Shown piece by piece: positions 1,442 to 29,857 of a stretch of 64,000 nucleotides of DNA. The translations under genes were made by a program, and so were the position numbers. Location of the stretch: the NCBI GenBank assembly GCA_014773175.1, contig VXCM01001478.1:1-64000 (forward strand), given 5' to 3'. The notes under the pieces are model-generated. The model saw nothing but the letters and a program-made list of their open reading frames with translations, searched no databases and was not told where the DNA came from. Every line of letters begins with the position of its first letter. The stretch's first letter is position 1. The DNA comes from Lucifuga dentata (taxonomy: Eukaryota; Chordata; Actinopteri; Ophidiiformes; Bythitidae).

Positions 1442-1640
1442 TAATCATGAAATTAATTTCATTTATTGGACGTTATCATTTGTCATTATCTCTATTAATA
1501 ACAGAATGCTGCCACTGTTGCAGACAGTGCTTAATTTTTATCAGGTTTAACATCATATTTATTGGTGTTTTTGTATGCCTTGTTCAAATATTGCTACTTT
1601 ATTACATTAAAATTGGATAAACAGTAAGAAACAGTAAATA

Positions 1641-2730: not shown

Positions 2731-2991
<261 letters not shown>

Positions 2992-3059
2992 TAGGGGAAG
3001 AAACGATTACTCTAGTCCTTTCCAGAGCTTCAGGAATAATGTACAGACATACTTAGCTC

Positions 3060-3905: not shown

Positions 3906-3912
3906 CGCTACC

Positions 3913-4478
3913 TTAAAGGACCATACCGGCCATTTTCCACGTTTGAGCCTAATATATTAATTTTTCATACACAATTACTGACAATCATTTCTCAAAGGAT
4001 ACTACTGGCACGGCGAATAAAAAAAAAAAAAATCCTACCTTCCAGACCTCCATTGGTTTCTGTTCATTCTGGTACGCTATTAAAATCAACTTGTTGATAC
4101 TTGAAACGTTCTTGGGATAGGTAATCCATCATCACCAACAAGACGTATATTTAGGATTTTTTTTTTAGAAGTTATGTAATTTTAGCGTTTAAGCACAATA
4201 AAAAGCGTGGAGTGAATGTATGCCTCCACCGGGGAATATAGTCCCAAAAGAAGACCTGCGTTTATGGAAAAATTTAAACGGCTGGGACTTCATAAGCCTG
4301 TGTAACTATTAGCAGGCGAAACATTGATGTTTAAGGTGGGTGTATCGCATGAATATTTGATTTTGAAAGATTAAAAGATGTTGCAAAATATCAATGGGAA
4401 ATGATTGTCAGTAACATAACCTATGAAAATTGAATATATTAGGCTCAAACATGCACAATCACCAGTATGGTCCTTTAA
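3913..4478. mobile_element. TTAA-flanked MITE, copy 1
   Basis: The left end is TTAAAGGACCATACCGGCCA and the right end is CAGTATGGTCCTTTAA. The TIRs extend about 50 bp (GTTTGAGCCTAATATATT mirrored by AATATATTAGGCTCAAAC). The same element is at 8696-9351, 12945-13568 and 28824-29405. There is no transposase gene. A TTAA at both borders of all four copies fits a piggyBac-type target duplication, but TTAA could be part of the TIR. Confidence 0.8.
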
Positions 4479-4571
4479 TGTGACACCAATGCACCAAACA
4501 ATGTAAATGGAGCTTTATAAATTACCTTCATTTACCACAGCGCTTATTAGTGTTACACTGTGCAGTTACCG

Positions 4572-4702
4572 TGATGTTTTAAATTTTTTTTTTTGTGTGT
4601 GTGTGAATCCGACCCACAGTTACCACATTTTGCTATNTGATGTTTTAAATTTTTTTTTTTGTGTGTGTGTGAATCCGACCCACAGTTACCACATTTTGCT
4701 AT
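4572..4702. other. assembly artefact: 65-bp duplication around a single N
   Basis: Bases 4572-4636 are repeated exactly at 4638-4702 with one N (4637) between them. The pattern recurs across the window and is best explained by unmerged overlapping contig ends. Confidence 0.85.
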
Positions 4703-4997
4703 ATGAGCTTTACTTACCCTCTGTACCTTCTCATCTTTATAGTTTTGGCGATAATACCTGATAGTACATAGGTCTGGTTCTACCTTTTTATTGGAAAATG
4801 TTGGACTGGTTTGAGCTCGTACTTTATTTAGGTTAGACAAACTTAAAGTGTTTAACTTTGTGTCTGTAAACTTTGACAGTCTAATTTGTCGAAGAGTATT
4901 TCTGTTGAGTAATTCTCATGATTTGGAAAATATTGATACCATTGTCCTGGATTTTCAATTTAAAAAAAAATCGCATAGTGCCCAAAGCAAACTTTAA

Positions 4998-5465
<468 letters not shown>

Positions 5466-5646
5466 TAAAAATTTGATGGTAAAAAAAAAAAAAAATCCTA
5501 AAATTTGACATTTTATCCAGGATTTAATGTGTAAATTTGCGTGAAATACATCATTTATCACATATAAATATACCCGGATCAAAAACAATGAGAGTAATTT
5601 CTCATCACGAGGTCTACAAACACATATGACTTGTACACATAACATA

Positions 5647-5830
5647 CACTACAGGCCAGATGTTTGAGGCCACCCCCAGATTTTAAAGAAATCATCAAAC
5701 ACTGTTTTACAATTTAGTGCACAGGAAATGACAGAAATATATCAAATAAATGTAAGTAATTAGTTTTCAAGAAGAACTGGTCAACAAGAGCACATTATGT
5801 AGCCACTATAGCCACAGAAATGATTTTTAA
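5647..5830. mobile_element. terminal fragment of the Tc1-like family
   Basis: CACTACAGGCCAGATGTTTG and the following A/T-rich stretch match the ends of the element at 1641-2465. The inner part (AGCACATTATGTAGCCACTA) is the reverse complement of its 3' half. No transposase remains. Confidence 0.65.
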
Positions 5831-5924
5831 TGAAGACATGCCCAGTCTGTATTTGTCTATGTATATGCAGTGAAAAATTAAACAGATATATGCATTGATC
5901 AAGAAATTTCCTTGAAGAAGTTTT

Positions 5925-6045
5925 GCAATATTAGATTGTCTGCATGGAGGCACTTTGCTGAAAATGTGGAGGCTTCTGTCAGCCACTCAGATTCATCATC
6001 TCACATCTGGTGACGTGTATCTATGGCACATCTGCACAATGTGTA
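5925..6045. repeat. diverged repeat shared with 49655-49777
   Basis: Both segments contain TCTGCATG.AGGCACTTTG.TGAAAAT and end GCACATCTGCACAA, with many differences between. One copy sits in an lrrc1 intron and the other in an mlip intron. Confidence 0.5.
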
Positions 6046-6411
6046 TTAATATGTTTTATTCCCAACATGCAACATGCTTGTTGGGAATGTTTATTCCCCC
6101 CCCCCGATTACGTGCACCCCTGCACAGAGGACACATACATGCACTCTGTCCTTTCTTGTGTGTTTGTTAATCAGGTAATGAGCTGTGTGAGCAATGCTGC
6201 CTTTTGGTTCCAGAGTGCTGATGTGTACAGTGAATGATTTTGTTATCCGTGGTTTCCTGACTTTATGGATAATTTGACCACTCGAGCGTTCAGTGAAAAA
6301 GTTGCTGAGCATGATAATGTAACAAACAAGATAAGCAAAGACCTTAGTGCCTGTGAGTTTAGAGGCTACTGACTTATGAAAAAAAAAATCAAGACTGTGA
6401 TGCTCTTTTGA

Positions 6412-6552
<141 letters not shown>

Positions 6553-7058
6553 TAATATTACTTCATTTTCTTAAAATTTGTTGGGTGGTGGAGAAAAAGC
6601 AACTGGAAATGTCAAAACCAAACTTGTAATGCAGCAAAGTTCTGGCTTTATATTAAGTGAGCTTGCTGCACTTTTACATTCTAAATATTATTAAAATCTT
6701 CTGGTTTGAAATAAAGATTTAGGAGCTTTTGGAAATAGCATCATATTCATCTTATTTGACTCAGCAGTCTCACTCTGAGCTCTCTGATCATATGCTTTCA
6801 CACAGTGCAGAAGAAAAAGTAAAATTCCCCTAAAGGTTTTTAAATTAAGATTAAAATAAAATAAATAAATTATATAAATAAATTAAACTATATAAAATAA
6901 AATAAAAATGAGGATAAGGCAACAAGAGCAAAATTAAGAATAAAAAAACTTAAGTATAGCATGTCTGCTGTTTAGACTGTTTGGCTTAACACAATTTTTT
7001 CTCAGTTTATATCAGTTTATATCATTTGAATGAAGTGTGTATTTGTGTTTCAGAGACA

Positions 7059-7745
7059 TTGGGTGGAATTCATTTAAAAAAAAAAAAATCATGCTAACTA
7101 CACGGCGTCACGCTAAATAAGCACTGCGACAGTTGCAGCTCATTCATAAATTGTTCCTGGCGTTAATCAGTGCATCACTGTCCCATAACTGACTCGTCCT
7201 TGTAAGGCGTGTCTCAGGTAAAAGCCTTCAGGTTTATGAGTTATACTTTGTACTGCTTCATCTGGTGCCAAAGAGAAATTGACATGTTAAATGTACAATA
7301 TCAGAACTAAGTACACCCCTGTTTATTAGGAAGAAAAGCAGAGTTTTTACTTTCTGTAGGTAATGTCTAGGTTGGAGCCATTTGGATGTGTTGAGCCTTT
7401 ATTGTAGCACATTTAACAATAACTGAAATTGGGAAAACACTTAACAGAATTTTTATTATCTAATCTTCTACATAACGTAGTTTCACAAGTAAGTACGCCC
7501 CTTACCAAAAATGTTACTACAAAGCAAACTTTGCTCTAGGGCTCTGCAATTTAAGAAATGGACGCTAAAATAAGATATCAATAAATCTACACTCCAGCAG
7601 TCCGGCATATGTGTGTAGATGCAGAGTGCAGCAGGTCAGGCTTGAGGAAGAAGTGCAATGCCAGGAGAACGTGTGGGAGATCACCAGTGTGTTTTATGAA
7701 TGGCTTCCCCAACACGGAAAGTGCAACCTTCTAAACACTCAAAGC
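7059..7745. repeat. family-B MITE-like repeat
   Basis: It starts GGGTGGAATTCATTT and contains CTAACTACACGGCGTCACGC and GCTAAATAAGCACTG, motifs that recur at 11953-12650 and 50910-51420. Ends are approximate. Confidence 0.55.
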
Positions 7746-8695
7746 TTTTAAATCATTAAGCCCAATAAAATGCAGATAGAAATCATTTTTGTGAAGATTA
7801 TCTTCATCATATCAGAGACAAACATAAAACGGATTCTGTTCACAAAAACATTTCCTCCTCAGTTCTGAACCCACCTGGTTGTGTAACTGCTGGTGATGTA
7901 CGTGGATTGTTATGTGACTGTCAGCATTTAGAGGAAATGTCAGCTTATCTGTTCTCACTACAGTTTATAGTGAACAACAGTTACACTTTTGCTGTTTGTT
8001 TAGAGTAAATGCTGAAAGGAGTGCAGACACAAAAGATTACAGGCTGGATTTTAAACCCATAGTTTCACAAACACGTTATGCACCAATTGTTTACTACAAC
8101 CTTTAATTTGATAGAAACCATGTCACAGTAATTGAATTGCTGGTAATTCAGACTGTAATTGTCTTTATTTGATGGTCTTGTGTACCACTGTACACTTAAT
8201 CCAACTAACTACCTGAGTGTAAGGTTATCAGTGGCCATTAAACTTTAATTAGCTGTTAGTTACCAGGCCCTTACTTGGTTTGCTTTCAGTACTCAGGTGT
8301 TTTCAGCTCCTTTGTGTTTGTGTGTCTTTTCTGAACCCTTGTCCATTTTAAGTGAAGACATGCTGGGTTAAAGCTTCATCTGAAAGGGCTCTTTAGACAT
8401 TGAACAATGCCCTTGTGTCTTAATGATGCAAAGACTGCAGTGTTTGGAGAAAAATAACAGCCCACTCGGTCTAGACAATGAATTGATGTCACTGTTTCTT
8501 GAAACAGAAACATTACATGACGTCGCTCACAATCACAGTGTAACTGGTCCAACTATTGAGCTGTGCTTTGGTGAGACACTTGACCATTGGTCCAGTTTCT
8601 TGGGTTCTATTAATTGTTGATTACTTGATCACAACACCTTTTCCAGAGCAGGATTTTGTCTGTTGTGCATCATGCTAAATAAGTGGTGTGATAAT

Positions 8696-9351
8696 TTAAA
8701 GGACCATACCGGCCATTTTGCATGTTTGAGCCTAATATATTCAATTTTCATACACATAATGTTACTGACAATCATTTCCCAAAGCATGCTACTGGAACAG
8801 TGAATTAAAAATGTTTTTCCTACCTTCCAGACCGCCCTTGGTTTCAGTTCATTCTGCTATTAAAATCAACTTGTTGATACTTGAAACATTCTTGGGATAG
8901 GTAATCCATCATCGCGAACAAGACGTGTATTCAGGGTTTTTGTTTTTTTTCAGTTACGTAATTTTAGTGTTTAAGCGCAATAAAAAGCGCAGAGTGAATG
9001 TATGCCTCCACCAGGGAATATAGTTNTAATTTTAGTGTTTAAGCGCAATAAAAAGCGCAGAGTGAATGTATGCCTCCACCAGGGAATATAGTTCCAAACG
9101 AAGACCTGTGTTTATGGAAGAATTTAAACGATACGTGACTTCGTAAGGCTGTGTAACTATTAGCAGGAGAAGCATGGATTTTTAAGGTGGATGTATCGCT
9201 TGAATATTTTATTTTGAAAGATTAAGAGATTTTGCAAAATAGCAGGAAAGCTGAAATATTTATCCTTTGGGAAATGATTGTCAGTAACGTAACATGTATG
9301 AAAATTGAATATTAGGCTCAAACATGCAAAATGGGTGTTATAGTCCTTTAA
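8696..9351. mobile_element. TTAA-flanked MITE, copy 2
   Basis: Left border TTAAAGGACCATACCGGCCA, right border AGTCCTTTAA. The same interior as copy 1 includes GAATGTATGCCTCCACCAGG. An N at 9026 is flanked by two copies of about 67 bp, so the true element is probably about 590 bp. Confidence 0.8.
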
Positions 9352-10029
9352 GCTCATTCATACAGCTTCCTTTACAGTAATTAGCGTATCGTTGTCTGAT
9401 TATTGAGATGCTGTTGTAAGCGATAAACACAGGTCACAGGTAAAAGCCAATGAAGGCCAGTGTGCTAGAGACACACTTTATACTGCTTCCTGTATTGTCA
9501 AAGCAAATCAGCAAAGGAAAGCTACATTTTCTGCTTATTACTCCACAGAAAGCTGCAACAGTGTCCATACAGGAGTCTGAGTCCCCCGTGCGAACGCCAT
9601 TTATGAATGAGGGAACCTGGTTGCCCATGTCGACACATTAAATCTGGCGCTGTGTTTTATGAATTCCACTCAAAATTTGTCATTTTTGTTGCTATTATAC
9701 AAATTCATATTGATGCAAAGAAAAAAAAAAACACTTTTATAAAACTCAGGATTAGCAAGCTTCTTTTACCATGATGAATTTCTGCATCATTTCTTGTATC
9801 CTGCTCATGTCTTTGCCTGAGCAGAGTAATACAAATAGATTACAATCTGCACTTTAGCTGCCCATCGAGTCCGTGCTTTTGACGGGCCACTGGCCTAATT
9901 GTGCCTAATTTTAGTTCCTTTTCCACATCTCATTGACTTTTAGTTGCTCTGCCACTGAGATCACCAACTCCAAAGCAAAGTACCAAAATGCTGCCGGCAG
10001 ATTTACTGCCTGTACTGTGTTAGATGTGA

Positions 10030-10452
<423 letters not shown>

Positions 10453-10456
10453 TAAA

Positions 10457-10501
10457 NNNNNNNNNNNNNNNNNNNNNNNNNNNNNNNNNNNNNNNNNNNN
10501 N
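10457..10501. other. sequence gap (45 N)
   Basis: A run of 45 N's flanked by poly-A on the left and poly-T on the right, inside the lrrc1 intron 10433-12690. Confidence 0.99.
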
Positions 10502-12690
10502 TTTTTTTTTTTTTTGATAGAAATCAATACTTTTACACCCTAAGGTTGGCATTGAATTGATTTGAATGTATAGTATAGCCAATACAAAACTGTAAAGAAT
10601 TTATAATTATTCACATCAAAACAATGATGTTTGAACAATACTGTAGATGTAGTGACAATTTAGAAATGTTCATGTGAAGCTGGGAGGGGCATTTGCACAT
10701 GTAAAGTCCCAGTAGCTGCACAGAAACATTTCTAAATCGTCACTATATATACATATGCATATATTAGGGCTGGGAAAATTAACGCGTTTTGCAATTGATG
10801 TACACGGTTTAACGCATTAAAAAAAAATTAATGCTATTAACACATCTGTCTTTTTCAAGATTTTACTTTTCACCTTCACTTTTTTTCCCCACTTCCTGTG
10901 GCTAATGTTATATGCTCACGTTAATTATGGAGAAGGAGAAAGATAAGAAAATTCTGCTTTAAAAAGTTAGCAGATGGCTCTTGTTGAAACCACAGAAACT
11001 CAGTTGCTCACCAGTGTGTTTTACTCAGATGTGGCTTTATTAATCAAAAACAGAAACAACAGAAAGCACTTCACAGCCTTTTAGCCTCACTTCAGCTTTA
11101 CTGCGTTGCTCTCTGTGGCTGCACGATACATTTAAGCTATAGATACAGATGTATCTCATCTTTCTATGTATATGCATACAAAATACTTGAGTGTCTCTAA
11201 TTTCCTAGCATGAAAGCTTTTTTCTAAAATGACTTAATCCTAAGACTGTGTACTTGAGTAATATTCCTCATCAGTCTAAAAAGGTTAAATACTCTGGTTT
11301 TGGTCACATTATCACACCAGAACAGTTTCTTCTGTGCCCTCGATCTTCCACTGTAGCTGCTGTCCTTTTCCTTGAGACCCTACGTGGTCATGTTTTTTCC
11401 AGAAACACGTGGATCAGAGAGCTAAAGAGGCTTAGCAATGGCTAGCGTGCTACTATTAAAAAGCATGCCTGCTGGGTATGGAGATGAAGAAGGCTGGCTG
11501 TACCTCTGCCTCATTCAACACCTTACTGTAATTTTTTTCTGCTACAGTCACTAAAGTCTTAGTGATGCACTGTAAAATGATTATTTCATCCTCAACACTG
11601 TTTTTACATTTGAAAAGAAAAAAGAAATGACACACTTTTACATTAATGTTTATGTCGCTCTTTTGAAGAGATGCATGTGAAAGATGAGTGCAGGTCAGGC
11701 GAGTGAGGCTGGAGCTGAGGTGGGGGAGGGAGTTTGTGCTGCAATAAGCCTGTGGCTAAGCTGGGATTGAAACTGTGATCATGCAGTTTTAGGATCTCCC
11801 TTATGAACACTGGCTTATGCAACACTTTCATTTCTTGGCAGATTGTAGAAAAGCAATCATACCAACTTAAACCTGCTACCAGCTTGCATGCTGTAACTGT
11901 ATTTGACTGTTTTTATGAGTGCACAATTTTAATAAAAATCAGTTGATACAAATTGGGGAGGATTCATTCAAAAATCAGGTTAACTACACAGTGTAAATAA
12001 GCACTGTGATGACTAAAGCTCATTCATAAAGCTCCTCATACATTAATCAGCAAACCGGTGTCACATTGAGGTAGTGTTGTCGTAAAGTGTCTCGCAGGTA
12101 AAAGCAAATGAAGATCAGTGTGTTAATGAGCTGCTTCATATTTACGAGCCACAATTTATCCTGATTCGTCTGGTTTTAAAGCCACAGTTAAATCAGCAAA
12201 GGAAACAAATTCTACTTGAGAGCTCCACACTTTCAGAAACTGACACTAAGATAACCAGTGCATTAACCTCTGTAGCATGTGAGCACTGTGTGAGGCTCAG
12301 AACGTGTCTGAGATCAGATTAAAACTCACCATTTAAACAAACTGACTGATCAGCTGAGTGTTTTTATCTATCAAATTTATTGATCACTAATATGTGAGGC
12401 AAATACAGTTTCAAACGTCGCCCAGATTTCATACCACGAAATTTACCACCAGACTGAAACACGTCTTAATTTTTGCATACTGCGTGTTTTATGAAAGGCT
12501 TTCCCGACATGTAAATAAGGAAATACTGTAGTAATGCCTCTAAAAGATACTGGTAACAGACATTTCTGAATGAGGGAACTTGGTAGTGAGATGATATTTG
12601 CCCTTATTGACACGTTAAGTCTTGCGCTAAGCTTCATGAATCTCACTCATTGTGTCTTGTGTCTTTTAATGTCATTTAAAAACTCCCCAG
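10502..12690. other. lrrc1 intron: repeats, no exon seen
   Basis: About 10765-10850 carries the GGGCTGGGAAAATTAACGCG / AACGCATTAA motif that is frequent in fish interspersed repeats. About 11953-12650 is a family-B repeat (GGTTAACTACACAGTGTAAA near its start, GCTTCATGAATCTCACTC near its end). The rest shows no coding signature. Confidence 0.55.
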
Positions 12691-12833
12691 GCTCTGATAA
12701 TCTTGCCCGCTGTGGAGCTCTGGAGAGTCTGGTGAACGACATGGAAGATGATACTTGGGACAGCAAAGCTATGAACAGGATCAGTACCATTCACTTCCTG
12801 GAGGAGGATGATGACGATGAGGATGATGACAAG
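12691..12833 (+). CDS. lrrc1: lrrc1 exon (post-LRR acidic region)
   Basis: Acceptor AACTCCCCAG and donor GTGAGA. It completes a Gly codon and reads SDNLARCGALESLVNDMEDD, ending in an acidic run LEEDDDDEDDDK. Human LRRC1 has [20 protein letters not shown] followed by an acidic stretch. The exon ends in phase 0. Because of that phase it could splice either to 13599 (short form) or to the PDZ-region exons at 19279; only the first is supported by family knowledge. Confidence 0.94.
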
Positions 12834-12944
12834 GTGAGAGCAGGGATCTTGAAGGCTTACAGTGGCATGCAGTTAGAGAAAGAAAAGAAAAACCTCTTCA
12901 GACACATGTTCATAACCATCTGCACTGCTGCACATGTAATCCAT

Positions 12945-13568
12945 TTAAAGGACCATACCTTCCATTTTGCATGTTTGAGCCTAATATATACAATTTTCAT
13001 ACACATAACATTACTGAAAATCATTTCCCAAAGCATACTACTGGAACGGTGAATTAAAAATGTTTTTCCTACCTTCCAGACTGCCATTGGTTTCAGTTCA
13101 TTCTGGTACGCTATTAAAATCAACTTGTTGATACTTGAAATTTTCTTGGGATAGGTAATCCATCATCACCAACAAGACGTGTATTCAGGTGTTTTTAGAA
13201 GTTACATAATTTTAGCATTTAAGTGGAATAAAGAGTGTGGAGTGAATGTATGCCTCCACCGGGGAATATAGTCCCAAAAGAAGGCCTGCGTTCATCAGAA
13301 AATTTAAATGACCATGACTTCATAAGACTGCATAACTATTAGCAGGCGAAACATGGATTTTTAAGGTGGGTGTATCATTTGAGTATTTGATTTTGAAAGA
13401 TGAAGAGATTTTGCAAAATATCAGGAAAGCTGAAATATGTAACATGTATGAAAATTGAATATATTAGGCTCAAACATGCAAAATGACCGGTATGGTCCTT
13501 TAANTAACATGTATGAAAATTGAATATATTAGGCTCAAACATGCAAAATGACCGGTATGGTCCTTTAA
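12945..13568. mobile_element. TTAA-flanked MITE, copy 3, filling an lrrc1 intron
   Basis: Left border TTAAAGGACCATACCTTCCA, right border CCGGTATGGTCCTTTAA. It occupies most of the 765-bp intron 12834-13598 and ends 30 bp before the last lrrc1 coding exon. An N at 13504 separates two copies of the right end, so about 63 bp is probably an assembly duplicate. Confidence 0.8.
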
Positions 13569-13757
<189 letters not shown>

Positions 13758-14231
13758 CTTTTACCTCAGAAATGTTTTTACCTCCTGTGTCCTCCTACAC
13801 GAGCCCTCGGCCTTTTGTTTCTCTGACCTGCTCACCCCCGTGTGCCCCCCCACCCCTCCGGTTAAACCCTGGACAGCACAGAAATGTGTTTGACCCGATG
13901 TGCCTTTCTCTTTTTAAATACTGTCTACAATCACCTGCACAAAGTTGCTCCTTTTAAAAGATATTTTAAAATTTGTAAAAATGTGTTACTTTTTTAATTG
14001 TCTCTTTTCAAAAAATATACATTAGATAGTTGCACTATGATAAGTCTTTATAATATGGTCAAAACCTACTCAAATATATTATATATTTGTTCTATAACTT
14101 TTTTAAACACTGGGTGAACACTTTATACATTTTGGGCAAATGAAATAAGTTTTTGACCTACTGATTAAGAATTATTGTATAGTCATTTGTGAATATTGAT
14201 ACTTTTATACTTTTTTGGCAGCTCAGATGTA

Positions 14232-14237
14232 AATAAA
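14232..14237 (+). promoter_or_regulatory. polyadenylation signal AATAAA
   Basis: Canonical hexamer 475 bp after the lrrc1 stop codon. Confidence 0.6.
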
Positions 14238-14810
14238 ATGTATAGGGATTTCTTAATCATTTGCAGATTTTATAACATTTTTCTTGAACTTGGTACTTTT
14301 TCCTTTTTAAGAATTAAAGCAATGAACAAATTGCAGTCATTAATATCTTCATCATAGCTAACTGTAGACTCATTTTGATCATAAATAAGTTCTGTCACTT
14401 AATTAGTTTTGAACTGAATTGGTAATCCACGACCAGTCAGTTATCTGCGGTATCATTGCGTGAATACCACATGGTTTTCTTATTTATATCTACAGCGCTT
14501 CACTGTTGTTCAGATTAAACAGTTTCATTTTAATCTCTTCTCTTTAAATAGTACTGTATAGAATAATAATTGGGGTTTTTTTGGTGAGAATGAGGTCCAT
14601 GCCACAGGGATGGCATCCTTTAAAAATGCAGTTCTCTACTTTCTCAATGCGTATTCTTTTATATGGTACATTATAAAATGTTTTTGTTTTTAATTTGATT
14701 ACAATAATTGGTTCAGTGTTGATTTTTGGTTTTACTTATTTCCTAATGAAACTGCACAAAAACATTTCTCTAAAGGCAAAGAGAGATTTGAATGACTTAA
14801 CCACTGATCC

Positions 14811-14816
14811 AATAAA
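14811..14816 (+). promoter_or_regulatory. distal polyadenylation signal AATAAA
   Basis: Canonical hexamer, followed by the T/G-rich stretch TTTGTTCTGCTTTTC at about 14840 that could serve as a downstream element. Confidence 0.55.
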
Positions 14817-14840
14817 ATGGATGCAACTCTAAATCAAATG

Positions 14841-15740
14841 TTTGTTCTGCTTTTCATGATGTGTGTCAGACATGCAGAAATCCCAACCCTAAAGGAATTT
14901 AAAGAACTGACTCTGGAGAGGATGCAGACTTGCTGCTTTCTGGTTTAAGGTTTCATCTCAACCTGTGTTGAGCTACAGACTGTGCATACGTACACACACA
15001 CACACACGTAAGCTTACACTCAAAAACTGCTTTGAAAATTGCACTCTTATGCCGCAGTAGTTATTTCAAGAAAGTCTTTCTAGTCTTTCTGTAAGTTAAA
15101 CTATAATTTCCTTACCCCTGCATTGCTTGTTTTGTCTGTTCAGCAGTGCATGATGTTATTGTAATGCTCCACCAGCACGTTTTACTTCGTTCACTCTGCA
15201 CGTGCTGCATGTTGTCTTGTCGCCATGCATGCTTCAGTACATTGTAATACGGATGTAGAGGTTCCTTTGTCTTGGTCACATCTGAGGCTCAGGCCTGTTT
15301 TTCTTTAGCATAAATCTGAGAGAAAGGAGGACACATAACTCAAACAAAGCTTCAGAGCTGGAGCTAAAGGTTAATTTGGCTACATTTTTCACTTCAGGAA
15401 CTTTGGTTGAATAAACAGTATTTTGACATTGTAGTAATGATTAATTTGATGCCCTCTGGTGTACAACAAAAGTGTGTATTGTAAATAGCACAAGCAGGAT
15501 TTCATCAATTTAACATGTTATTGTCAGCTGTTTTCTGGGAAGCATGAGGCTTCTCTGAGCATAATCTTTTTTTTTTTTTTTTTTANTTTTTTTTTTTTTT
15601 TTTTTAATTCTTATTCCAAATTTATTTCCTGCTTTGGCACTTGACTTTATCTTTTTGAAAACTTTTAATTCCCATGTGTATTATAAAATGTCACAACTAG
15701 CTTCAGTTAGGAGTGCTGTAAATAGTGCAACTAAGGAAAG
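14841..15740. other. intergenic/intronic, nothing recognised
   Basis: A short CA repeat lies at 14993-15007. A poly-T run with a single N (15586) lies at about 15568-15605. No exon-like sequence was seen. Confidence 0.5.
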
Positions 15741-17044
15741 ACCGAGTGACAACCTGGACTGAGAGCTGACAGGAGGGAATACACCCAACTGGGGTCGTCA
15801 TGGACAAGCAATCCATGATGGTAACACCCTAATATGCGAGGTTGCACCCATTGATATGTAAATGCAGTAGAATACCCAGGTGTCAGAGCAGGGGTAGAAG
15901 ATGACTCACATTAAGGACCCCCAGTTAATGACGCTGGAACAGACTTGATTATGAGCACTTCAGTGGAAGCCATGGGAGTCAGAGTGAAAACAGGTGCAGA
16001 TATACCCACAGTCACATCCAGTAAGGGCCTCAGCATATACCAAGGGAAGAAAAGATGCTGAGAGGAGGTGACAAGGGATCCTGCATTGATAGGTACTTCC
16101 TAAGAAGTCAGTCAGGTGAAGTCCATGTGACAGAGGGAGCCAAAGTTCAAAGGACATCAGCATCCCAGTGGCTGGGGATGCTGGGGAGCAAGTACCACTC
16201 AGGATGTCAGGATAGTGATGAGCTTAGGCAGCCCAGGAAATAGAGGAGCAGTGGACGGATACCCAGAATGCCCTGTGCCCCAGGGCAATGTTTAACAGAC
16301 CTGATAAGGATACTGAAGAGAGTAAAGGAACAGTTGAGAAAATGCTAGACAAGATAGGAGATCTGATCTATGAAAACAGGAGGGAAATATTTGGGGTCTG
16401 TAAATGCAGGAAGAAAGTAGCAGTCCAAACTGAAGTCTAAGCACCAACAGGAAATTGATAGGCTCATCTGAGAAAGAATGCAGCTTAGAAGGCAATGGCA
16501 GAAGGCCACAGATAACAAACCGCAAAGTGACATGTCTCAATAGTTATCTCTGAGAAAGGCAGAAAGGCTTAGGAAAAGCAGAAGCAAGATGGAAAGAGCT
16601 AGAGCATCTTTTTACAAGGACCCTTACAAGTTTGTGAAGATGTTATTTTGCAAGGAGGAGAGTGATATTCAGACAGGGACAAGGGGAGAGTTAGAATCAC
16701 ACTCAGAGAGGATGCTTACAGATAGGGACAGATACAGGAAGTTAGGAATGTCACCAGATATCCACCAAAGTACTCCTGATGTGTTGAGGCTCTTGTGGAA
16801 CCAGTTCAAGGTAGCATAGAGCAAACAACTTATCCCTAGATCATGGTATAAAGCAGGAGGAATATTTATTTCTAAGGAGAATAATTCATTTCTGATAGGT
16901 CAGTTTAGGCCAATTTACCTTCTAAATGTTGAAGGTAAGATTTTCCTTTAGTGTGGTAGATCAGAGACTGAGCAGTTACCTAGAGAAGAACAGACTAGAC
17001 TGTTAGATCTATGTTAGCATCTATGGATGCTTGGAACCATGCAA
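15741..17044 (+). mobile_element. degraded LINE reverse-transcriptase relic, left half
   Basis: Plus-strand frames give RARASFYKDPYKFVKMLF (16589-16819 open frame), which resembles the region before the RT of fish non-LTR elements. About 16893-16945 gives IGQFRPIYLLNVEGKIF, the RT motif usually written FRPISLLNVEGKIF. Frameshifts and stops are many. The same element resumes at 18416 after an inserted antisense LINE. Confidence 0.7.
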
Positions 17045-18415
17045 ATATGATTTCATTTCATTTCAATTCAATTCTTTATTGCCATGTCAACACAAAGTTG
17101 ATAGGAATTTGTCTCGATGCGCTCACAACATNAATTCAATTCTTTATTGCCATGTCAACACAAAGTTGATAGGAATTTGTCTCGATGCGCTCACAACATA
17201 CAGACAATAAACAACGATCACTGATACACATATATATCTGATAAATCTAAAAAGTGAGTCCTAAGTCTCATTAAAAATGCTAATTAACAGCTAAAAAGTG
17301 CAACATCAGATCAGAGCTAAACTACATAAAATTGTCATAACAATTACAAAGNAGCTAAAAAGTGCAACATCAGATCAGAGCTAAACTACATAAAATTGTC
17401 ATAACAATTACAAAGAACAATTAAAAACGAGGTCTTTAGAATCATTTAAAAGATGAATTGCAGATGTGTATGTGCTATTCCTGAATCTGGTCGTCTTTGA
17501 GGGAAGAGATTTCAGCCTTTTTCCCGAAAGAAGAAATTTAAACAGAGAGTTAGCAGGATGCGAAGGGTCTTTTAAGATTTTTAAGCCCAGTTTTTTGAGG
17601 CGTGACTTGTGGATTTCTTTGAGAGCAGGAAGTTTGATGCCAATGATACTTGAGGCTGTGCGCACAATTTTCTCTAACTGTTTTGCTTCCTGGGTTGTGA
17701 TGTTGTTGAACCACACTGTTATTGAGAATAGATTCTATCACAGATCTATAGAACAAAAGCAAACCTCTTGAAACTTTAAACTTTTTCAGCTGTCTGAGGA
17801 AGAACAGTCATTGGTGGGCTTTCTCTATGATAGCTGTCGTGTTGTCTGTCCACTTCAGGGAGGAAGAGATGGTGGTACCTAAAAACTTAAAACTGACCAN
17901 CTGTCGTGTTGTCTGTCCACTTCAGGGAGGAAGAGATGGTGGTACCTAAAAACTTAAAACTGACCATCTGTTCCACCTCCTGGCCATTGATTGCCAAGGG
18001 TTCAATATCTATGGAGCTCTTTCTGAAATCAATAATCATTTCTCTCGTTTTAGAAACATTCAAATGCAGATTGTTGTTAAGATACTAGCTAGTCATCAGG
18101 GTGAGGACTAGCTAGCCTCCCTATAAGCAGTTTCATTGTTGTTAGAGATAAGGCCTACAAGTGTTGGGTCATCTGTAAATTTAAATGTTTTAACTGAGCT
18201 GTGCTGGGAGGTGAAATGATTAGTGTACAGGGAGTATAACAGTGGGGACAACACGCAACCTTGTGGAGCACCTGTGCTGATGGTAAGGGATCTAGAGAAG
18301 TTGTTGTAAATTTTAACCACTTGTTTCCGGTTCTGGAGAAAATTGAGGATCCAGAGAACAAGTGAGTGGGTGACTCCCAGGTCTCTACCAATCTTCTCCC
18401 AGATTTCTACCAAAT
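17045..18415 (-). mobile_element. antisense LINE fragment inserted in another LINE
   Basis: Minus-strand 18108-18413 encodes an RT fragment with STGAPQGCVLSPLLYSLYTN and FKFTDDPTLVGLI, the latter the F-x-D-D catalytic box with Thr for the usual Ala. Minus-strand 17408-17716 encodes the RT C-terminal part with KIVRTASSIIGIKLPAL and LPSKTTRFRNSTYTSAIHLL. The 3' end is near 17045. Three single-N joins (17132, 17352, 17899), each with duplicated flanks, lie inside. ATTTCA at both borders may be the target duplication. Confidence 0.8.
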
Positions 18416-18660
18416 TTCAACCACAAAGAAAGATAGAAGAAACCTACCTTCCATACATGTAGTATTCTTATACTTGACTAATGCATTTAGTTCTGTACTG
18501 CATAGTCTACTCTGGGAAGTGCTGGTGTACTTCAGAGTTCCTGATTTAATCAAAGGGTTGCTTACTTGGGAAGAGTAGGGTTCACAGACAATCGTAGGTG
18601 CAGAAGATCAAAAGGTAAGGAGAGGAAATGGTGTTTCCTGTTACTCAGTCCAGCAGTTTT
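18416..18660 (+). mobile_element. degraded LINE relic, right half
   Basis: The plus-strand frame gives STTKKDRRNLPSIHVVFLYL then TNAFSSVLHSLLWEVLVYFR. This is the RT segment expected a little after the motif at 16893-16945 (family form VVFLDLANAFGSVPHSLLW). The first catalytic Asp of that motif reads Tyr here. Confidence 0.7.
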
Positions 18661-19278
18661 ATGACTGCACAGCCTGATATGCACTGCTGGACCTGGGGAG
18701 AGATAAAGTCACCATTTAATATCAGCCTCTGGGCTTCCATTGGAGTGCTCACCCAAGTTGCTGCATGTACCACACGTGTATTGTCATTCATCTGAAAAGG
18801 ACAGGCTTTTCAGGCAAATGAGTTAGAAGTGTGGTTTGAAGTAAGCAATCATATATGCCACTGATCCATTATTTTCACCAAAGTTATTACATTTCATCAA
18901 TAGCCCCTATCTTCTGACTATCTCCAGGAGTGTAGAAATGGTCATGCTAACCCGTTTCTCAAGGCTATTCACCCAAACTGGCCCATTCCTGCCCTCTGCT
19001 GGGTGGAAAACAAGGAATGTCTGCAAGGAAGCCTCACACTGCCCCCGGCCAGTAACGGTGTGTGTGGCTGCTGCTTCACTGAAGAGAAGACAGTAGAAGA
19101 ACCTAAGCAACCTGAGGAGGTCTGTTTTCCAGTTTAGCTTTCTTGCATAGATCAAGCAATTTTTCCCCATTTGGGGAAGCACACGTTTATGGTGATATAC
19201 ATTAACAGCTGTTTTTGCAGACGTGCAGTTGCGTATTTCACAGACTAAAAAGGCAGTGAAGGCATTTCTTATCTCCAG

Positions 19279-19515
19279 GATGGAGCTGCAGATCAGCTGC
19301 CAGAGAAGAATGCCTTGCAACAGTGGTTTTGTCATCAGAGAGGTGAAATTCAAAAGGGAAGAAATTTTCAACAGCGCCAAGATGCAGAGTCCAGTCTGCA
19401 TGGGGACCCTGTTCACAACATCAAGATCATCTCTATCACAGGGCAACTCAAGCCATCTTTGGTCACAGAAACGATACTTCCTCAGGAATCAGTCATCTCT
19501 GAAGTGCCATTAAGA
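19279..19515 (+). CDS. putative linker exon upstream of the PDZ exons
   Basis: Acceptor TTATCTCCAG and donor GTAACT. The 79 open phase-0 codons begin DGAADQLPEKNALQQWFCHQ and end SVISEVPLR. I do not recognise the sequence. It is a candidate exon because it is open throughout, is bounded by splice sites, has the same phase as all later PDZ exons and lies just before them. Scribble has a long poorly conserved linker between its LRR and PDZ regions. A chance open frame remains possible. Confidence 0.4.
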
Positions 19516-19690
19516 GTAACTGCATGCTGCATCTATCTTTCATCAAAATTTCTCTGACATATACTATACTACACTGCAGCAGAAACCCATATGTAACATG
19601 ACAAATAGTTAAGGTTTGCTAATCTGTTTTTTGTATGTTAGCTCTTGAGTGACTTTTTATTGATACTGAAGTATTTCCTCTTAGTTACAG

Positions 19691-19774
19691 ATCAGAGTCT
19701 CAGGCTAGCGGGACGGTTTGGGTATAAGCATTGCTGGAGGGAAAGGCTCTCTTCCCTACATAGACCATGATGAG
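19691..19774 (+). pseudogene. PDZ domain exon 1 (GLGISIAGG) with in-frame TAG
   Basis: The exon begins a Scribble-type PDZ domain. With acceptor TTAGTTACAG and donor GTAGGT it reads IRVSG, stop, RDGLGISIAGGKGSLPYIDHDE. Human SCRIB PDZ1 has LTILRQTGGLGISIAGGKGS, so the carboxylate-binding loop GLGI and strand B are intact and the stop falls on the column of Gln in SCRIB. The TAG is at 19706-19708. Either CAG mutated to TAG, or a second acceptor ending in that same TAG is used, starting the exon at CGG (19709) in the same frame. It joins in phase 0 to the next exon. Confidence 0.75.
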
Positions 19775-19990
19775 GTAGGTGCAAGTGCAGAAGAGCCAGA
19801 ATTGCTCATCTTGCTTCCCTTTGCTCATATGAACATCTGAATGAAGTTAAAGTGGTAGAAATCAGCTGAGGTACAGTATTAGCTGTACAGTATCAGCTGA
19901 GGTACACAATTGTCACCTGTACTTTCCCCTACTCCTTTTAGTCCATACATATCCTATATGCATGTTAAAACTTTGTATATTTCCTTTAAG

Positions 19991-20068
19991 GGCATTTTTA
20001 TTTCACGAGTAAGTGAAGGGGGGCCCTCAGAAACGGCAGGAATCCATGTTGGAGACAGATTGCTGGAG
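19991..20068 (+). CDS. PDZ domain exon 2 (GIFISRV)
   Basis: Acceptor TTCCTTTAAG and donor GTAGGA. The 26 phase-0 codons begin GIFISRVSEGGPSETAGIHV and end GDRLLE. SCRIB PDZ1 has GIFISRV-EGGPAARAGVRV-GDKLLE. It forms strands C-D of the PDZ fold. The near-identity to SCRIB rather than to ERBIN or LRRC7 PDZ domains places it with the Scribble/LRRC1 branch. No LRR exons intervene between lrrc1 and this exon. Confidence 0.85.
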
Positions 20069-20394
20069 GTAGGACAATTTTATCTGTGGTTATTATCTCT
20101 GGTATTGTGATTAAATCCCCTATTCGACTGACTTTCTCTATATAATAAAACCCCTCATATTATTGTGGACATGGACATCAGTGCTGCTATTAAATCAACA
20201 CTGAAGTTCCTCTTGTGACCAAAGGAGGGTGTCATAAGACAAGCAGAGAACATTCAGTTTGAACTACCTACTATGACAAAGCCAGTACAAAACTACATTC
20301 CTGATAAAACACAAATTCACACACATTAGCTGGGTTGAGCTAAGAATTAAAACTCCTGTCTGTCAAAATACACAGGTCATGTTCAGAGAATCTA

Positions 20395-22321
20395 AGGCTG
20401 GATTTACACGACCACGCACATGCGACCTGATTCCTATCTTTTGCTTGCATGTGACACCTATCGGATACGCTTCCTGAAGATGTAAATGGGAAAAAGACAC
20501 ATGGAATCGGATAATCTCAGATCTGTTTTGGGCCACTTGCATATGTGGAAATAAATCAGATACATATTGGATAAGATAAAATAATCCTTTATTAATCCCA
20601 CAGCAGGGAAATTGCAGTGTTACAGCAGCAAAGGCAATAGTGCAAGGATAAAAAACAACAGGCAAGATAGTGCAAAGCAAAAACAGGCAAGTCAACAAGC
20701 ATCAATAGGTAAGTAAAAATAAGTGAATAAAACAAAATATAAATCCACAGGCTGAATGTGCTGAATTCACATTATTGCACATAGGAAATGTTGATATTGC
20801 ACAGTTAAGTAAACATTACAGTATACATGATATTGCAGATGGGTGAATTATCAGTTTTGGTATGTGCATACTACTGGGAGCAGTGCTGATTGTAAAGCCT
20901 GACAGCTGCAGGGAGGAAGATGGTATCTCTCCTTCACACACTACGGTGAAGCAGCCTGTCGCTGAAGGAGTTGCCCAGTGCTGTCAAAATGTCTTGCATG
21001 GGGTGGGACGTGTTGTCCATCAGGAATGATAGCTTAGCCTTTGTTCTCCTTTCTCCCACCACCTCCAGCAGATCGAGGGGGCACATCCTAGGACAGAGCT
21101 GGCCTTCTTAACCAGTTTGTCAAGTCTCTTCCTGTCAGCAGTCAAAATGCTGCTCCCCCAGTAGACCACACTATAGAAGATGGCTGATGCCACAGAGTCA
21201 AAGCAGGTCCTCAGGAGTGTCCCCTGCACTCCAAAAGACCTGAGTCTCCTCAGCAGATACAGTCTGCGCTGTCCTTTTATGTAAAGTGTATTTGTGTTGT
21301 CCATCCAGTCCAGTTTATTGTTCAGGTGAACACCCAGGTATTTGTAAGATTTCACCATTTCAATGTCCATTCCCTGGATGTTCACTGGTGCAGGGGGAGA
21401 GCGCGGAAATCCACCACCAGCTCTTTGGTTTTCCCTGCATTGATCTGGAGGTGGTTCCGCTGCTGCCACCAACTGACAAAACCCTGGATCAGTTCTCTGT
21501 ATTCCTTGTTGTCCCCGCCTGTGATGATGCTGATGATTGTGGAGTCATCAGAGAACTTTTGTAGATGGCTGAGTTGTGTGTGAAGTCAGCAGTGTAGAGG
21601 GTAAAGAGAAAGGGAGCCAGAACTGTTCCTGCGGGGCTTCTGTGCTTCAGACAACCATGTGGGCCTCACAACCTCGTATCCTCACATACTGTGGTCAGTT
21701 GGTGAGGTAGTCCAGAATCCATGCCGTCAGGTGGTGGACTACCCTGTGAACTCCAACTTGTCCCTCAGAAGTGTGGGCTGTATGGTGTTGAAGACACTGG
21801 AAAAATCAAAAAAACATGGTTGTCACAGTGCTTCCAGGATATCCACCAATATGACTGCTGTCTAAATACATAGATCAGAATTTCCTTCCCATTCCATCTC
21901 TGATGTAACATTCCACCTTGTCCGCATATGGATGATGTAAGTGATCATTAAGCTTTGTGTAAACAGAAATGGAGGACATACTATATATATCAGACATACT
22001 GATGTGTGTTTGTCAAATACACGTGTTAGTGTGTGATAACAGGCTTCTGTTACAGCAGCAAAAGCCCAACTCCAACCGCTTCTCCTCTATGATCGCCCAA
22101 CGAAAATACATGTCCAGATGGGAGAGATAAACGCTCAAACCACATATCACGTTTCTCTATTTTGTTTACATTCGTCTCAGAAATGTGTGCATGTGCAACT
22201 GCAAGTATCAGATATGAGCTGCTTAAAAAAAGAAAATGTACAGTAAATATATTGAAAAAAAAATCAGATATAGGCAAAAGGTCAGAATTGAGCATCAAGA
22301 CTTGTAGTGTAAATCCAGCCT
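20395..22321. mobile_element. TIR element split by a LINE insertion
   Basis: AGGCTGGATTTACAC at 20395 and GTGTAAATCCAGCCT ending at 22321 are perfect 15-bp inverted repeats. About 1.3 kb of antisense LINE (20569-21850) lies between them. The element sits in the intron between PDZ exons 2 and 3. Confidence 0.65.
20569..21850 (-). mobile_element. antisense LINE 3' fragment (L2/Maui-like)
   Basis: Minus-strand 21020-21472 encodes the RT C-terminal part: KSYKYLGVHLNNKLDW, GQRRLYLLRRLRSFGV, YWGSSILTADRKRLDKLV and KKASSVLGC. These are standard words of a very common fish non-LTR family. The 3' end is the TAAAATAATCCTTTATTAAT stretch near 20577 with a GATAA-rich tail. The element is 5'-truncated and interrupted by stops. 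Confidence 0.85.
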
Positions 22322-22324
22322 ATG

Positions 22325-22325
<1 letters not shown>

Positions 22326-22357
<32 letters not shown>

Positions 22358-22391
22358 ACTTGCTTCAGTTTCCCACCTGNTCCAGCCTATG

Positions 22392-22424
<33 letters not shown>
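22326..22424. repeat. GT microsatellite, duplicated by an assembly join
   Basis: Two (GT)n blocks with identical flanks stand on both sides of a single N (22380). This is probably one real microsatellite. Confidence 0.8.
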
Positions 22425-22490
22425 ACTTGCTTCAGTTTCCCACCTGTGACTTTTCCCCCTGAAAGTAAAATGTGACCATGGTCCATCCAG

Positions 22491-22751
22491 GTCAACGGCC
22501 TCAGCTTGCAGGGGGCGACCCACCAGGAGGCAGTGAGTGCCCTCAGGAATGCTGGGAGTTGCATTAAGATGAAAGTACTTAGAGAGATGTCAGAGGTCTG
22601 CGTCCCCAATAACCAGAGTCCTCAGGACATGATGAGGGGACAACAGTGCAGCCAGGCGAGTGGAGAACAAAGCAGACAGCAGAGGACGGAGAGCTCAGCA
22701 GTCTCTTTATCCAAGAACACTGAGGCAGTTGTCTGTAATGGTAATGGAATT
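22491..22751 (+). CDS. PDZ domain exon 3 and following linker
   Basis: Acceptor GTCCATCCAG and donor GTGAGT. The 87 phase-0 codons begin VNGLSLQGATHQEAVSALRN and continue AGSCIKMKVLREMSE, completing the PDZ fold. SCRIB PDZ1 has VNGVALQGAEHHEAVEALRG. The His of GATHQEAV is at the first position of helix B, the signature of a class I PDZ domain (ligand S/T-x-hydrophobic). A Gln/Ser-rich linker with no recognised motif follows, ending VVCNGNGI. Confidence 0.85.
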
Positions 22752-22869
22752 GTGAGTTACTCCAATCACACTCGGAGAGAACAAGTATTGTATTCCAACA
22801 TTGTTAGTTTTATTTGGATTATATATTAAAAACAACTGTCAAGGTTTTCTTTATGTTTATGTGTTTTAG

Positions 22870-22929
22870 TCTGAGGAGCAGAGCGAGGCCTTGATGAAAA
22901 ATGATGAGGCCGGGAGAATTACCATGACT
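22870..22929 (+). CDS. putative short exon after the PDZ
   Basis: Acceptor GTGTTTTAG and donor GTGAGC. The 20 phase-0 codons read SEEQSEALMKNDEAGRITMT. The sequence is not recognised. Support is open frame, splice sites and matching phase. Confidence 0.55.
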
Positions 22930-23138
22930 GTGAGCAGATTTTTTTTTAACTTAGATTATTATCTCATAATGATATAGATGCAAAGCAATCAAATTATCTC
23001 AAATCAAATTACCTATATCATAAATAATTAAAACGTGTGTTTGACAGCTGCCTTTCTGTTCTTCAGTATAGATACATCATACAGACTAATTTCTTCCCCT
23101 TCCCATTCCTGATCTCCTCCTGGACATTCCTCTGTCAG

Positions 23139-23291
23139 ATTCCGCAGATCATCCTCACTCATCCCTCCATTTCAGATGAAGATGTGGAGCTCTTGACTTC
23201 ATCCCCCAGCAGAGAGCTGTCACATGACCGTGACATTCCTGACAGACACGTCCACTCTGATTGCTTCGACAGTGCTTTCCACCCAGCTTGA
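23139..23291 (+). CDS. putative terminal exon of the PDZ unit
   Basis: Acceptor CCTCTGTCAG, stop TGA at 23289-23291. Fifty codons begin IPQIILTHPSISDEDVELLT and end DCFDSAFHPA. No second PDZ domain follows, whereas Scribble has four. An AATAAA signal lies 213 bp after the stop, consistent with a real gene end. The six candidate exons 19279-23291 total 290 codons. Confidence 0.6.
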   Translation: MPQIILTHPSISDEDVELLTSSPSRELSHDRDIPDRHVHSDCFDSAFHPA

Positions 23292-23503
23292 CTAACCACA
23301 GAACAGTGTATCAAGCTTTTTTGTCCTGAAGCATGTTAAGTGCTGTTGATGTATGAGAAACTGTCAGAATGTGTTCTTTTATTCTGTCACGGCAGAGCTT
23401 GTTCAGTCAGATGTAATTGCGGGTAATAGTATGAAAAGCATTTGTAAGAATGAACAACTTTAACAATCGAGGCTTCATTTTTATTACAAAGACACTATGA
23501 GAG

Positions 23504-23509
23504 AATAAA
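23504..23509 (+). promoter_or_regulatory. polyadenylation signal AATAAA of the PDZ unit
   Basis: Hexamer in GAGAATAAAGCC, 213 bp after the stop codon of the putative terminal exon. Confidence 0.55.
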
Positions 23510-25129: not shown

Positions 25130-25472
25130 AACCACCCCCATGTTTTACATGGGGGTTGCAGAGCAATAGCATGACCAGACTGTGTAGCAAGTTAATCCTA
25201 AATGATATGGGAGAAGGCAGACAGCAGCTATTGAATAGAATGTTAAAACACATCAGCAGGAATGCTGCACTAATACAGACTGATGCCTTCATTATTAATC
25301 ATTTCTGTAGCCATAATAGCTGCAACATGTGCTACTGGTGACTAGTTATATTTATTTTTTATATTTTTTCATTTCCTGTGCAGGAAATTGTAAAACAGTG
25401 TATTGATGATTTTTTTTTTTTTTTTTTTTTTAAATCTGGGGATAGCCTCAAACTTCTGGCCTGTAGTGTACA
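25130..25472. mobile_element. Tc1-like family 3' half
   Basis: It matches 2093-2465 (AGACTGTGTAGCAAGTTAATCC, shown here up to AGACTGTGTAGCAAGTTAAT, and GGAGAAGGCAGACAGCAGCT) and ends with the terminal repeat CTTCTGGCCTGTAGTG. Confidence 0.7.
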
Positions 25473-28823: not shown

Positions 28824-29405
28824 TTAAAGGACCATACCACCCCCATTTTGCATGTTTGAGCCTAACATATTCAATTTTCATAAACATAACGTTACTGACA
28901 ATAATTGCATATTACTGGAATGGTGAATTAAAAATATTTTCCTACAGTTCATTCATTTCACTTCATTCTGGTACACCATTAAAATCAACTTGTTGATACT
29001 TGAAACGTTCTTGGGATAGGTAATCCATCATCACCAACAAGATGTATATTCAGGTTTTTTTTTCCAAAGTTATACAATTTTAACGGTTATGCGCAATAAA
29101 AAGCGTGGAGTGAATGTATGTCTCCACCAGGGAATATAGTCCCAAAAGAAGACCTGTGTTTATGGAAAAATTTAAAGGACAGTGACTTCATAAGGCTGTG
29201 TAACTATTAGCAGGAGAAACATGGATTTTTAAGGTGGGTGTAACACTTGAATATTTGATTTTGAAAGATTAAGAGATTTTACGAAATATCAGGAAAGCTG
29301 AAATATGGTTTTATCCTTTGGGGAAATGATTGTCAGTAACATAACATGTATGAAAATTGAATATGTTAGACTCAAACATGCAAAATGGCCAATATGGTCC
29401 TTTAA
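28824..29405. mobile_element. TTAA-flanked MITE, copy 4
   Basis: Left border TTAAAGGACCATACCACCCC, right border CCAATATGGTCCTTTAA. The interior is as in copies 1-3. Confidence 0.8.
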
Positions 29406-29857
29406 GACATTTTTCACTTTGTGGCGACTGGCTATTTAAACGTGACTGTTGTTGTGCTGTAAGAGGTGATGCCGTGCGGCTGGTATTTGGTCTTTGCTGT
29501 GAGCTCACACACACATACACACACTGGCATGCCACAGTGTGTGTGTGAGCTCACACTCAATAAGGTGACATGTAGTGTTTTGCAGAGCAGAAACTTGATC
29601 TGCGAGAACAGCGTGACTTTGGCAACACTCAGCAAATAAAACATTCAAGAGGGCTCTTAGGAGCAAGCTCTTTAACCTTTCATAGTGTATTCTTACTCTG
29701 CTGTGACTAAAGAGGACACAAACAAGCCAGATACACAACAACACTCAACCCACAAAGCAGTTTATAAGATATAATGTGTTTTTTTTTTTTTTTAAANTTT
29801 TTTTTTTTTTTTTAACATATGGCCTGTGCTATTTTTATCTACAGATCTTTAGATACT

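Follow-up and report, generated by a model that had tools for sequence, protein, structure and literature searches.

PDZ-coding exons downstream of lrrc1 in Lucifuga dentata: a probable alternative 3' end of the gene

The 64,000-nucleotide stretch of the Lucifuga dentata genome analysed here (contig VXCM01001478.1, positions 1 to 64,000 of the forward strand; hereafter the window) contains the 3' part of lrrc1, which encodes the leucine-rich repeat (LRR) protein LANO, and, directly downstream on the same strand, seven exons that encode linkers, one PDZ domain and a C-terminal tail. We consider these exons likely to be an alternative 3' end of lrrc1, that is, a composite terminal exon arrangement giving rise to a long isoform. 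In composite terminal exons and intronic polyadenylation, a 5' splice site within a coding exon sets whether a short or a long C-terminus is made; the lrrc1 case differs in that its two ends would be a PDZ ligand and a PDZ domain. LANO/LRRC1 is described as the sole LAP member without a PDZ in the accessible part of PMC12731447, whereas the long-form models have one. An original prediction made from the same DNA had left three options for the PDZ exons, namely a long isoform, a separate small gene and a decaying remnant. The long isoform is now the best explanation, with a splice junction different from the one proposed then and with a stop codon in the PDZ of this genome.

The short and the proposed long 3' end of lrrc1

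In the window, lrrc1 occupies positions 466-13757 of the plus strand in ten coding exons with AG/GT borders (466-522, 680-743, 1361-1435, 2779-2923, 5026-5144, 6442-6525, 10063-10178, 10263-10432, 12691-12833 and 13599-13757), which give an open frame of 376 amino acids with 70-90% identity to 26 teleost lrrc1 models. The tblastn matches begin at residue 149 of the Lates model P0123, and the stretch matching the first ~148 residues of that model lies outside the window. Pfam LRR families were found both on the partial lrrc1 and on P0123, as expected of the N-terminal LRR block of LAP proteins. When the last coding exon (13599-13757) is read through, the short LANO form ends at the stop codon 13755-13757 with the residues -TTSV, which read as a class I PDZ ligand. 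The same exon contains an internal phase-0 5' splice site, AATGAG/GTCAAC at 13718/13719 (AATGAG/GTCAACAAC), which is unscored and differs from the GTRAGT consensus. The GT of this donor is present in the window and used in models of other species. The donor GT is at the same time the start of GTC, the first codon specific to the short form, so that the 12 C-terminal residues of this form, -TTSV among them (13719-13757, plus strand), would be intron in the proposed long form. The LRRs and the end of the shared region (ATPHPGELK...LDSNKNE) are common to both forms of the gene.

The seven downstream exons (0 and A-F) are all on the lrrc1 strand and in phase 0, and exons A-F carry AG/GT borders. 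Exon 0 (18928-19119; ECRNGHANP...QPEE), with the borders ctccag/GAG and gtctgt, was located by tblastn of fused models, P0121 matching 18874-19119 and P0123 matching 18907-19518. Exon A (19279-19515) encodes a linker, exon B (19685-19774; 90 bases, phase 0 at both ends) the start of the PDZ with its carboxylate-binding loop, exon C (19991-20068) its middle, and exon D (22491-22751) its end with the invariant alpha-B1 His, followed by more linker. Exon E (22870-22929) continues the linker and has ITMT at its end, and exon F (23139-23291) encodes the C-terminal tail, IPQIILTHPSISDED...DSAFHPA, before the stop codon TGA at 23289-23291. An AATAAA lies 3' of the long form at 23504-23509. Exons B-D encode a PDZ by Pfam (68.3 bits against a cut-off of 23.2), and the fused models match every exon of the window in order by tblastn, the short exon E being without a match of its own. 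PDZ-coding exons on the lrrc1 strand, their phase 0, shared with the end of the lrrc1 exon 12691-12833, and the terminal stop codon with AATAAA had all been predicted, and each of these is found in the sequence.

The translation of exons A-F, with the stop written as X, was used as a query in a search able to find stand-alone-size proteins only, and matched 155 proteins at E ≤ 1e-3. The best relative is a Thunnus protein (68% identity, 100% length coverage, E 7e-114), and chance is therefore excluded. Of the 120 matches listed, 118 bear names of ray-finned fish, among them gar, bowfin, sturgeon, paddlefish, eel, salmon and zebrafish; the other two are a Ciona protein with four PDZs (P0091) and the nameless P0117. 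The names given to the relatives in the database are arbitrary ('protein scribble homolog', 'inaD-like', 'erbin', 'disks large', 'PTPN13', 'splicing factor 4'). When the window is aligned with 35 listed relatives (36 rows), the PDZ and a tail block, IPRIILTHPSTSDED, stand out as conserved. The equivalent exons that were to be sought in other fish are thus encoded in many of them, which favours an old origin, and the PDZ tail is not a feature that this fish in particular has kept.

When the paddlefish tail without its PDZ was used as the query, in a length range that admits both stand-alone and LRR-bearing proteins, 87 proteins matched at E ≤ 10, of which 21 carry LRRs. Two named matches come from outside the ray-finned fishes, a wombat 'LRRC1' (P0250) and a protein of the electric ray Narcine bancroftii (P0247); a further one, P0246, is nameless. 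The ray model stands alone, contains both PDZ and tail, and has 41% identity to the bowfin protein over 236 columns. By these sequence comparisons, the PDZ and tail appear to date back to early jawed vertebrates at least. Because the searches were limited to set protein length ranges, the absence of other tetrapods is no sign of loss.

The evidence for a connection with lrrc1 comes from predicted proteins. With lrrc1 plus tail as the query, 17 fish proteins with LRRs and PDZ (P0121-P0137) rank first, before SCRIB, and 14 of them are named LRRC1; as 'leucine-rich repeat-containing protein 1 isoform X1' (P0121, P0123), the long form is already in the databases. Among 253 retrieved proteins, 27 from 24 species hold the SNKN end of lrrc1 and continue beyond it, 25 of them with the PDZ core, on the same polypeptide as the LRRs, and 25 with the tail block. 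Eighteen of these 27 fused models, from 15 of the 24 species, leave lrrc1 exactly after SNKN[E/K] (...LDSNKN[E/K]), and they include carp relatives, catfish, bonefish, percomorphs and the wombat. Seventeen of the 18 then continue with sequence of exon 0 or exon A, in some cases with a few additional residues; the bonefish P0242 first runs through an unrecognised stretch. The junction is thus shared by models at a site inside the last lrrc1 exon, and the junctions proposed originally, 12833 to 19279 or 12833 to 19691, were not seen in the retrieved relatives. Teleost models show the joining to lrrc1, as does the wombat model for the tail alone. The wombat protein uses the same junction and keeps a fish-type linker and the IPRIILTHPSTSDED tail (matching pieces of 54% over 59 residues, E 3e-13, and 27% over 190, E 7e-13); a PDZ was not found in this model by Pfam.

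Could the downstream exons instead form an independent small gene driven by a promoter of its own, derived by fission of an ancestral LRR+PDZ gene, the fused models being products of read-through or annotation errors? The 66 of 87 paddlefish-tail matches that stand alone, in a length range open to both kinds, would fit such a gene, as would zebrafish P0083 and Lates japonicus P0007, which are without LRRs; that both are nevertheless named lrrc1 isoforms favours the long isoform. Close relatives also share a start peptide in pairs (e.g., P0008/P0015, P0106/P0108 and P0003/P0007). However, these few pairs are the only shared starts: among the 35 aligned stand-alone models the first 12 residues differ, and there is no family-wide start peptide. 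Counts of start columns are uninformative here, because the aligner puts a lone M in column 0, where 24 of the 35 rows begin. The identical in-frame junction of 18 of the 27 fused models, across species as distant as the wombat, also speaks against a separate gene, and we regard one as quite unlikely.

Several points nevertheless weigh against the long isoform. The fused models are predicted annotation products; nine of the 27 read into VN... and join later or otherwise; and the stand-alone majority (66/87) may point to a scarcity of bridging reads. For the wombat there is one predicted cluster, made up of two sequences, the PDZ and tail of the ray are known from a stand-alone model, and the long-form frame of the window itself is interrupted by TAG.

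A PDZ-bearing lrrc1 3' end in fishes is annotated in databases but undescribed in the literature covered by our search. No description of a PDZ-bearing LRRC1 was found in titles and the openings of abstracts, in a coverage from which most subscription journals are missing. Santoni et al. 2002 is said to give a LAP phylogeny and may discuss the loss of the PDZ in LANO. The accessible parts of PMC8569552 and PMC9729800 contain nothing on a PDZ-bearing LRRC1, and LANO 1-524 was used in PMC10333293.

Type, origin and predicted ligands of the PDZ

The original assignment of the domain as closest to SCRIB PDZ1 agrees with several measures of similarity. Among solved structures of single domains, human SCRIB entries come closest with 107-109 bits (2w4f and others); from their residue numbering we take them to be PDZ1. 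They are followed by Drosophila lap4 (79 bits), further human SCRIB entries (68 bits) and other single domains (60 bits or less); the top whole-chain structure, PSD-95 with 130.6 bits, owes its score to the sum over three PDZs with 40-46 bits each. The mean identity of the LRRC1-PDZ rows is 58% to SCRIB PDZ1 (207 pairs), 43% to PDZ2 (115 pairs), 40% to PDZ3, 41% to PDZ4 and 33% to ERBIN, and the window shares 55 of 79 core residues with human SCRIB PDZ1.

The PDZ tree comprises 48 rows and 88 columns, a number flagged as few, and LRRC7 is not included in it. One group holds the LRRC1 PDZs (23 rows, support 82/71), within which the window row groups with a cod-like fish and spiny-rayed fish (9 rows, 97/87). 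SCRIB PDZ1 forms a second group (9 rows, with Ciona and three fish among them, 94/88) and PDZ2 a third (100/100), and these three together are split from PDZ3, PDZ4 and ERBIN (96/90). The support of the LRRC1-PDZ group is moderate, the best tree pairs PDZ1 with PDZ2 (support 54/0), and pairing the LRRC1 PDZ with PDZ1 or with PDZ2 fits equally well (approximately unbiased test, p 0.57 and 0.58). As a proof that the LRRC1 PDZ is the sister of SCRIB PDZ1, the tree failed, and it is similarity that favours the closer relationship to PDZ1.

The LRRC1 PDZ is not a recent copy of scrib, since it falls outside the SCRIB-PDZ1 group, in which a recent copy of fish scrib should nest; this placement favours an old origin, and the PDZ region is not a retrocopy because it has introns, with phase-0 borders. 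That its best single-domain solved match is SCRIB PDZ1 would be expected of a retrocopy or recent duplicate. However, the SCRIB-PDZ1 clade from which it is excluded (94/88) contains three fish SCRIB sequences, and the tail pattern (PRIILT or PSTSDED) occurs in none of 95 retrieved proteins longer than 1000 amino acids, mostly SCRIB. Such a copy is extremely improbable. LRRC1 and SCRIB fit the relationship of old paralogues, in keeping with the originally suggested descent of lrrc1 from a scrib-like LRR+PDZ gene.

The two proteins differ in several respects. SCRIB (LAP4) has four PDZs, and every LRRC1-type row scanned has one; when SCRIB sequence downstream of PDZ1 from three proteins was searched against the window by tblastn, only the exons of the single PDZ were matched and no PDZ2-4 was found. 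Homology of the tail to SCRIB was considered and rejected. A query still holding the last PDZ residues gave weak alignments only (E 3e-4), and in comparisons with five SCRIB proteins the best E values were 0.004 (tail of P0001) and 0.043 (P0100), with none for P0108. ERBIN and LRRC7 (Densin-180), which combine an LRR domain with a single PDZ, resemble the long form in architecture, and the PDZ of ERBIN falls with SCRIB PDZ3 and PDZ4 in the tree.

In the structures given in PMC10333293, SCRIB PDZ1 contacts its C-terminal peptides through L738, G739, I740, S741, I742, G744, S748, T749, S761, R762, H793 and R801; one ligand ends with T-S-V, numbered 2841-2843, and the TMIGD1 ligand is called class I. 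Eleven of these 12 groove positions are the same in the window and are kept in 33-36 of the 36 rows, and position 749 is L in the window instead of T. The ligand numbered 2841-2843 is presumably APC. Given the match of the groove to that of SCRIB PDZ1, the long form should therefore bind C-terminal ends like -TTSV, the end carried by the short form, and we infer that the two LRRC1 isoforms may bind each other. LANO engages MAGUK proteins through its C-terminus. An interaction of LANO with MAGUK proteins is reported in the accessible part of PMC12731447.

The conserved tail block contains a short PxIxIT-like motif, PQIILT (23142-23159, plus strand). The form P-x-I-x-[LV]-T, which fits the PxIxIT pattern, is present in all 138 proteins picked by the neighbouring [HRC]PS[TI]SD block; besides L/V, the motif varies at its x positions (R, Q, W; I, V, T). 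Because most of these rows are near-identical, the count is a measure of conservation and not of binding. PxIxIT motifs dock calcineurin, and calcineurin docking by the LRRC1 tail is a guess at a function predicted from the motif. In an AlphaFold model of P0123 (34 rows; mean predicted local distance difference test score, pLDDT, 59), the LRRs and the PDZ, with block means of 61-91, are the confident parts, and the linker and the unstructured tail have pLDDT under 50 (residues 747-888).

State of the proposed long form in Lucifuga dentata

As assembled, the PDZ of this copy is untranslatable. An in-frame TAG at 19706-19708 (plus strand) lies in exon B, in the PDZ frame that gives GLGISIAGG, and replaces the Q of most relatives, single rows showing H, L or R. 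The exons had been read as one continuous PDZ domain, and the TAG lies also within the exon from 19691 as it was then drawn; it was overlooked together with the donor at 13718/13719 and exon 0 (18928-19119). Over 1068 coding bases there is no frameshift, and the TAG is the sole stop. Unless it is an error, the PDZ of the window is probably disabled or skipped. Skipping of exon B, which has 90 bases, would bypass the TAG in frame and keep the tail, and the product would resemble the wombat model.

There is close to an even chance that the tail is a dead remnant in this species, the TAG being fixed and no useful product being made. In addition to carrying the TAG, the window departs from columns that are at least 90% conserved in 8 of 86, third among the 36 rows after paddlefish (11/92) and sturgeon (9/91), although the stop-free P0012 is equally divergent (8/89). 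In a comparison with 19 other rows, which are mostly from spiny-rayed fish, the departures number 13 of 105 for the window, 15 of 116 for P0029 and 14 of 117 for P0027, the last two being stop-free as well. The end branch of the window is long (0.095, against 0.032-0.036 for P0001, P0122, P0123 and P0019), but that of Takifugu P0134 reaches 0.13. The intact frame apart from one stop argues against a remnant, as does exon B skipping with the frame kept, which is annotated in the reedfish (Erpetoichthys) P0244; the croaker (Larimichthys) P0133 is also without exon B, together with the end of exon A. In Perca P0129, 22 extra residues follow exon B.

Two further measures of constraint were tried. 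The tail of the window is 50-63% identical to those of ten fused proteins whose LRRs match those of the window at 84-90%; when these ten are compared with one another as controls (45 pairs), tail identities are 49-82% and LRR identities 83-95%, so that the window is low but not outside their range, and relaxed selection is suggestive only. In a neutral simulation with the TAG codon left out, 20-68 amino-acid changes gave a mean of 1.15-3.66 stops, and one stop or fewer remained in 68% to 11% of runs. A single stop is unremarkable under this simulation, and the number of stops is not decisive as a test of constraint.

Alternatively, the gene is intact and the TAG reflects a minor allele or a mistake in sequencing or assembly. 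No other lesion is present, and assembly faults are visible in the window, where 11 of 23 single-N joints are flanked by duplications of 61-67 bases. However, there is no N between 17900 and 22380 and hence none in exon B, a single-base change is unlike the type of fault at these joints, and even apart from the TAG the window is one of the more divergent rows. We therefore hold an error or minor allele to be possible but doubtful.

Returning to the long isoform, we propose a most likely working model in which lrrc1 would switch between two LRR scaffolds, a PDZ ligand and a PDZ receptor. The internal non-consensus 5' splice site would lie in the final coding exon of LANO. Read-through of this exon would yield the known LANO ending in -TTSV, and splicing to exon 0 would remove the ligand and add the linker, one SCRIB-PDZ1-like PDZ and the disordered tail with the IPRIILTHPSTSDED block. 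The groove residues of the predicted receptor form match those of SCRIB PDZ1. Since the PDZ exon has a stop codon in Lucifuga dentata, long-form transcripts of this fish would probably be degraded by nonsense-mediated decay or else lack exon B.

A more far-reaching version of this scheme is tentative, and we think it more probably wrong than right. In it, the hallmark C-terminal PDZ ligand of LANO would be a translated intron, made up of the 36 coding bases that follow an ancestral donor. From a single transcript, vertebrate lrrc1 would produce a ligand form ending in -TTSV and a receptor form with a SCRIB-type PDZ, and these forms, able to bind each other, would couple LRR scaffolds in a splice-dependent manner. 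The calcineurin-docking tail of the long form would have persisted beyond the loss of the PDZ in marsupials and possibly in this fish, and a LANO without PDZ would be a condition reached late and only in particular lineages.

As polarity scaffolds, Scribble, Erbin and LANO are regarded as redundant, LANO being the member that functions in the absence of a PDZ. Should a PDZ form of LRRC1 exist in fish, it would have to be counted in studies of LAP redundancy in zebrafish and other fish, and the loss of the PDZ in LANO would become a splicing event open to dating and testing. More than 100 database proteins with scattered names would become one family with one likely origin, with a tail motif conserved from early jawed vertebrates onward, the function of which is a guess.

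Other features of the window

The single-N joints with direct duplications of 61-67 bases are at 4637, 9026, 13504, 17132, 17352, 17900, 22380, 32184, 39319, 53329 and 60313. At these joints, contig ends overlapping by about one k-mer were seemingly joined by N without being merged. A scan of the window against Rfam at gathering scores and a tRNA scan found nothing.

An open frame at 42443-44272 (609 amino acids, Ser/Pro-rich) has no significant Pfam family; by human synteny it could be mlip as the downstream neighbour, an assignment without Pfam support that was not used here. Within the proposed long-form introns, reverse-transcriptase-like open frames were recognised by eye on the minus strand at 17408-17734, 18108-18416 and 21020-21544. 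A dispersed element with inverted ends of ~61 bases starting with TTTAAAGGACCATAC is present as paired copies at 3912-4479 and 12944-13569 and as single ends at 8695-8755 and 29346-29406; it is probably a non-autonomous DNA transposon of the TTAA type, the class being a guess. A second family, with the inverted ends CACTACAGGCCAGAAGTTTG, has a paired copy at 1641-2465 and single ends at 5647-5673 and 25442-25468.

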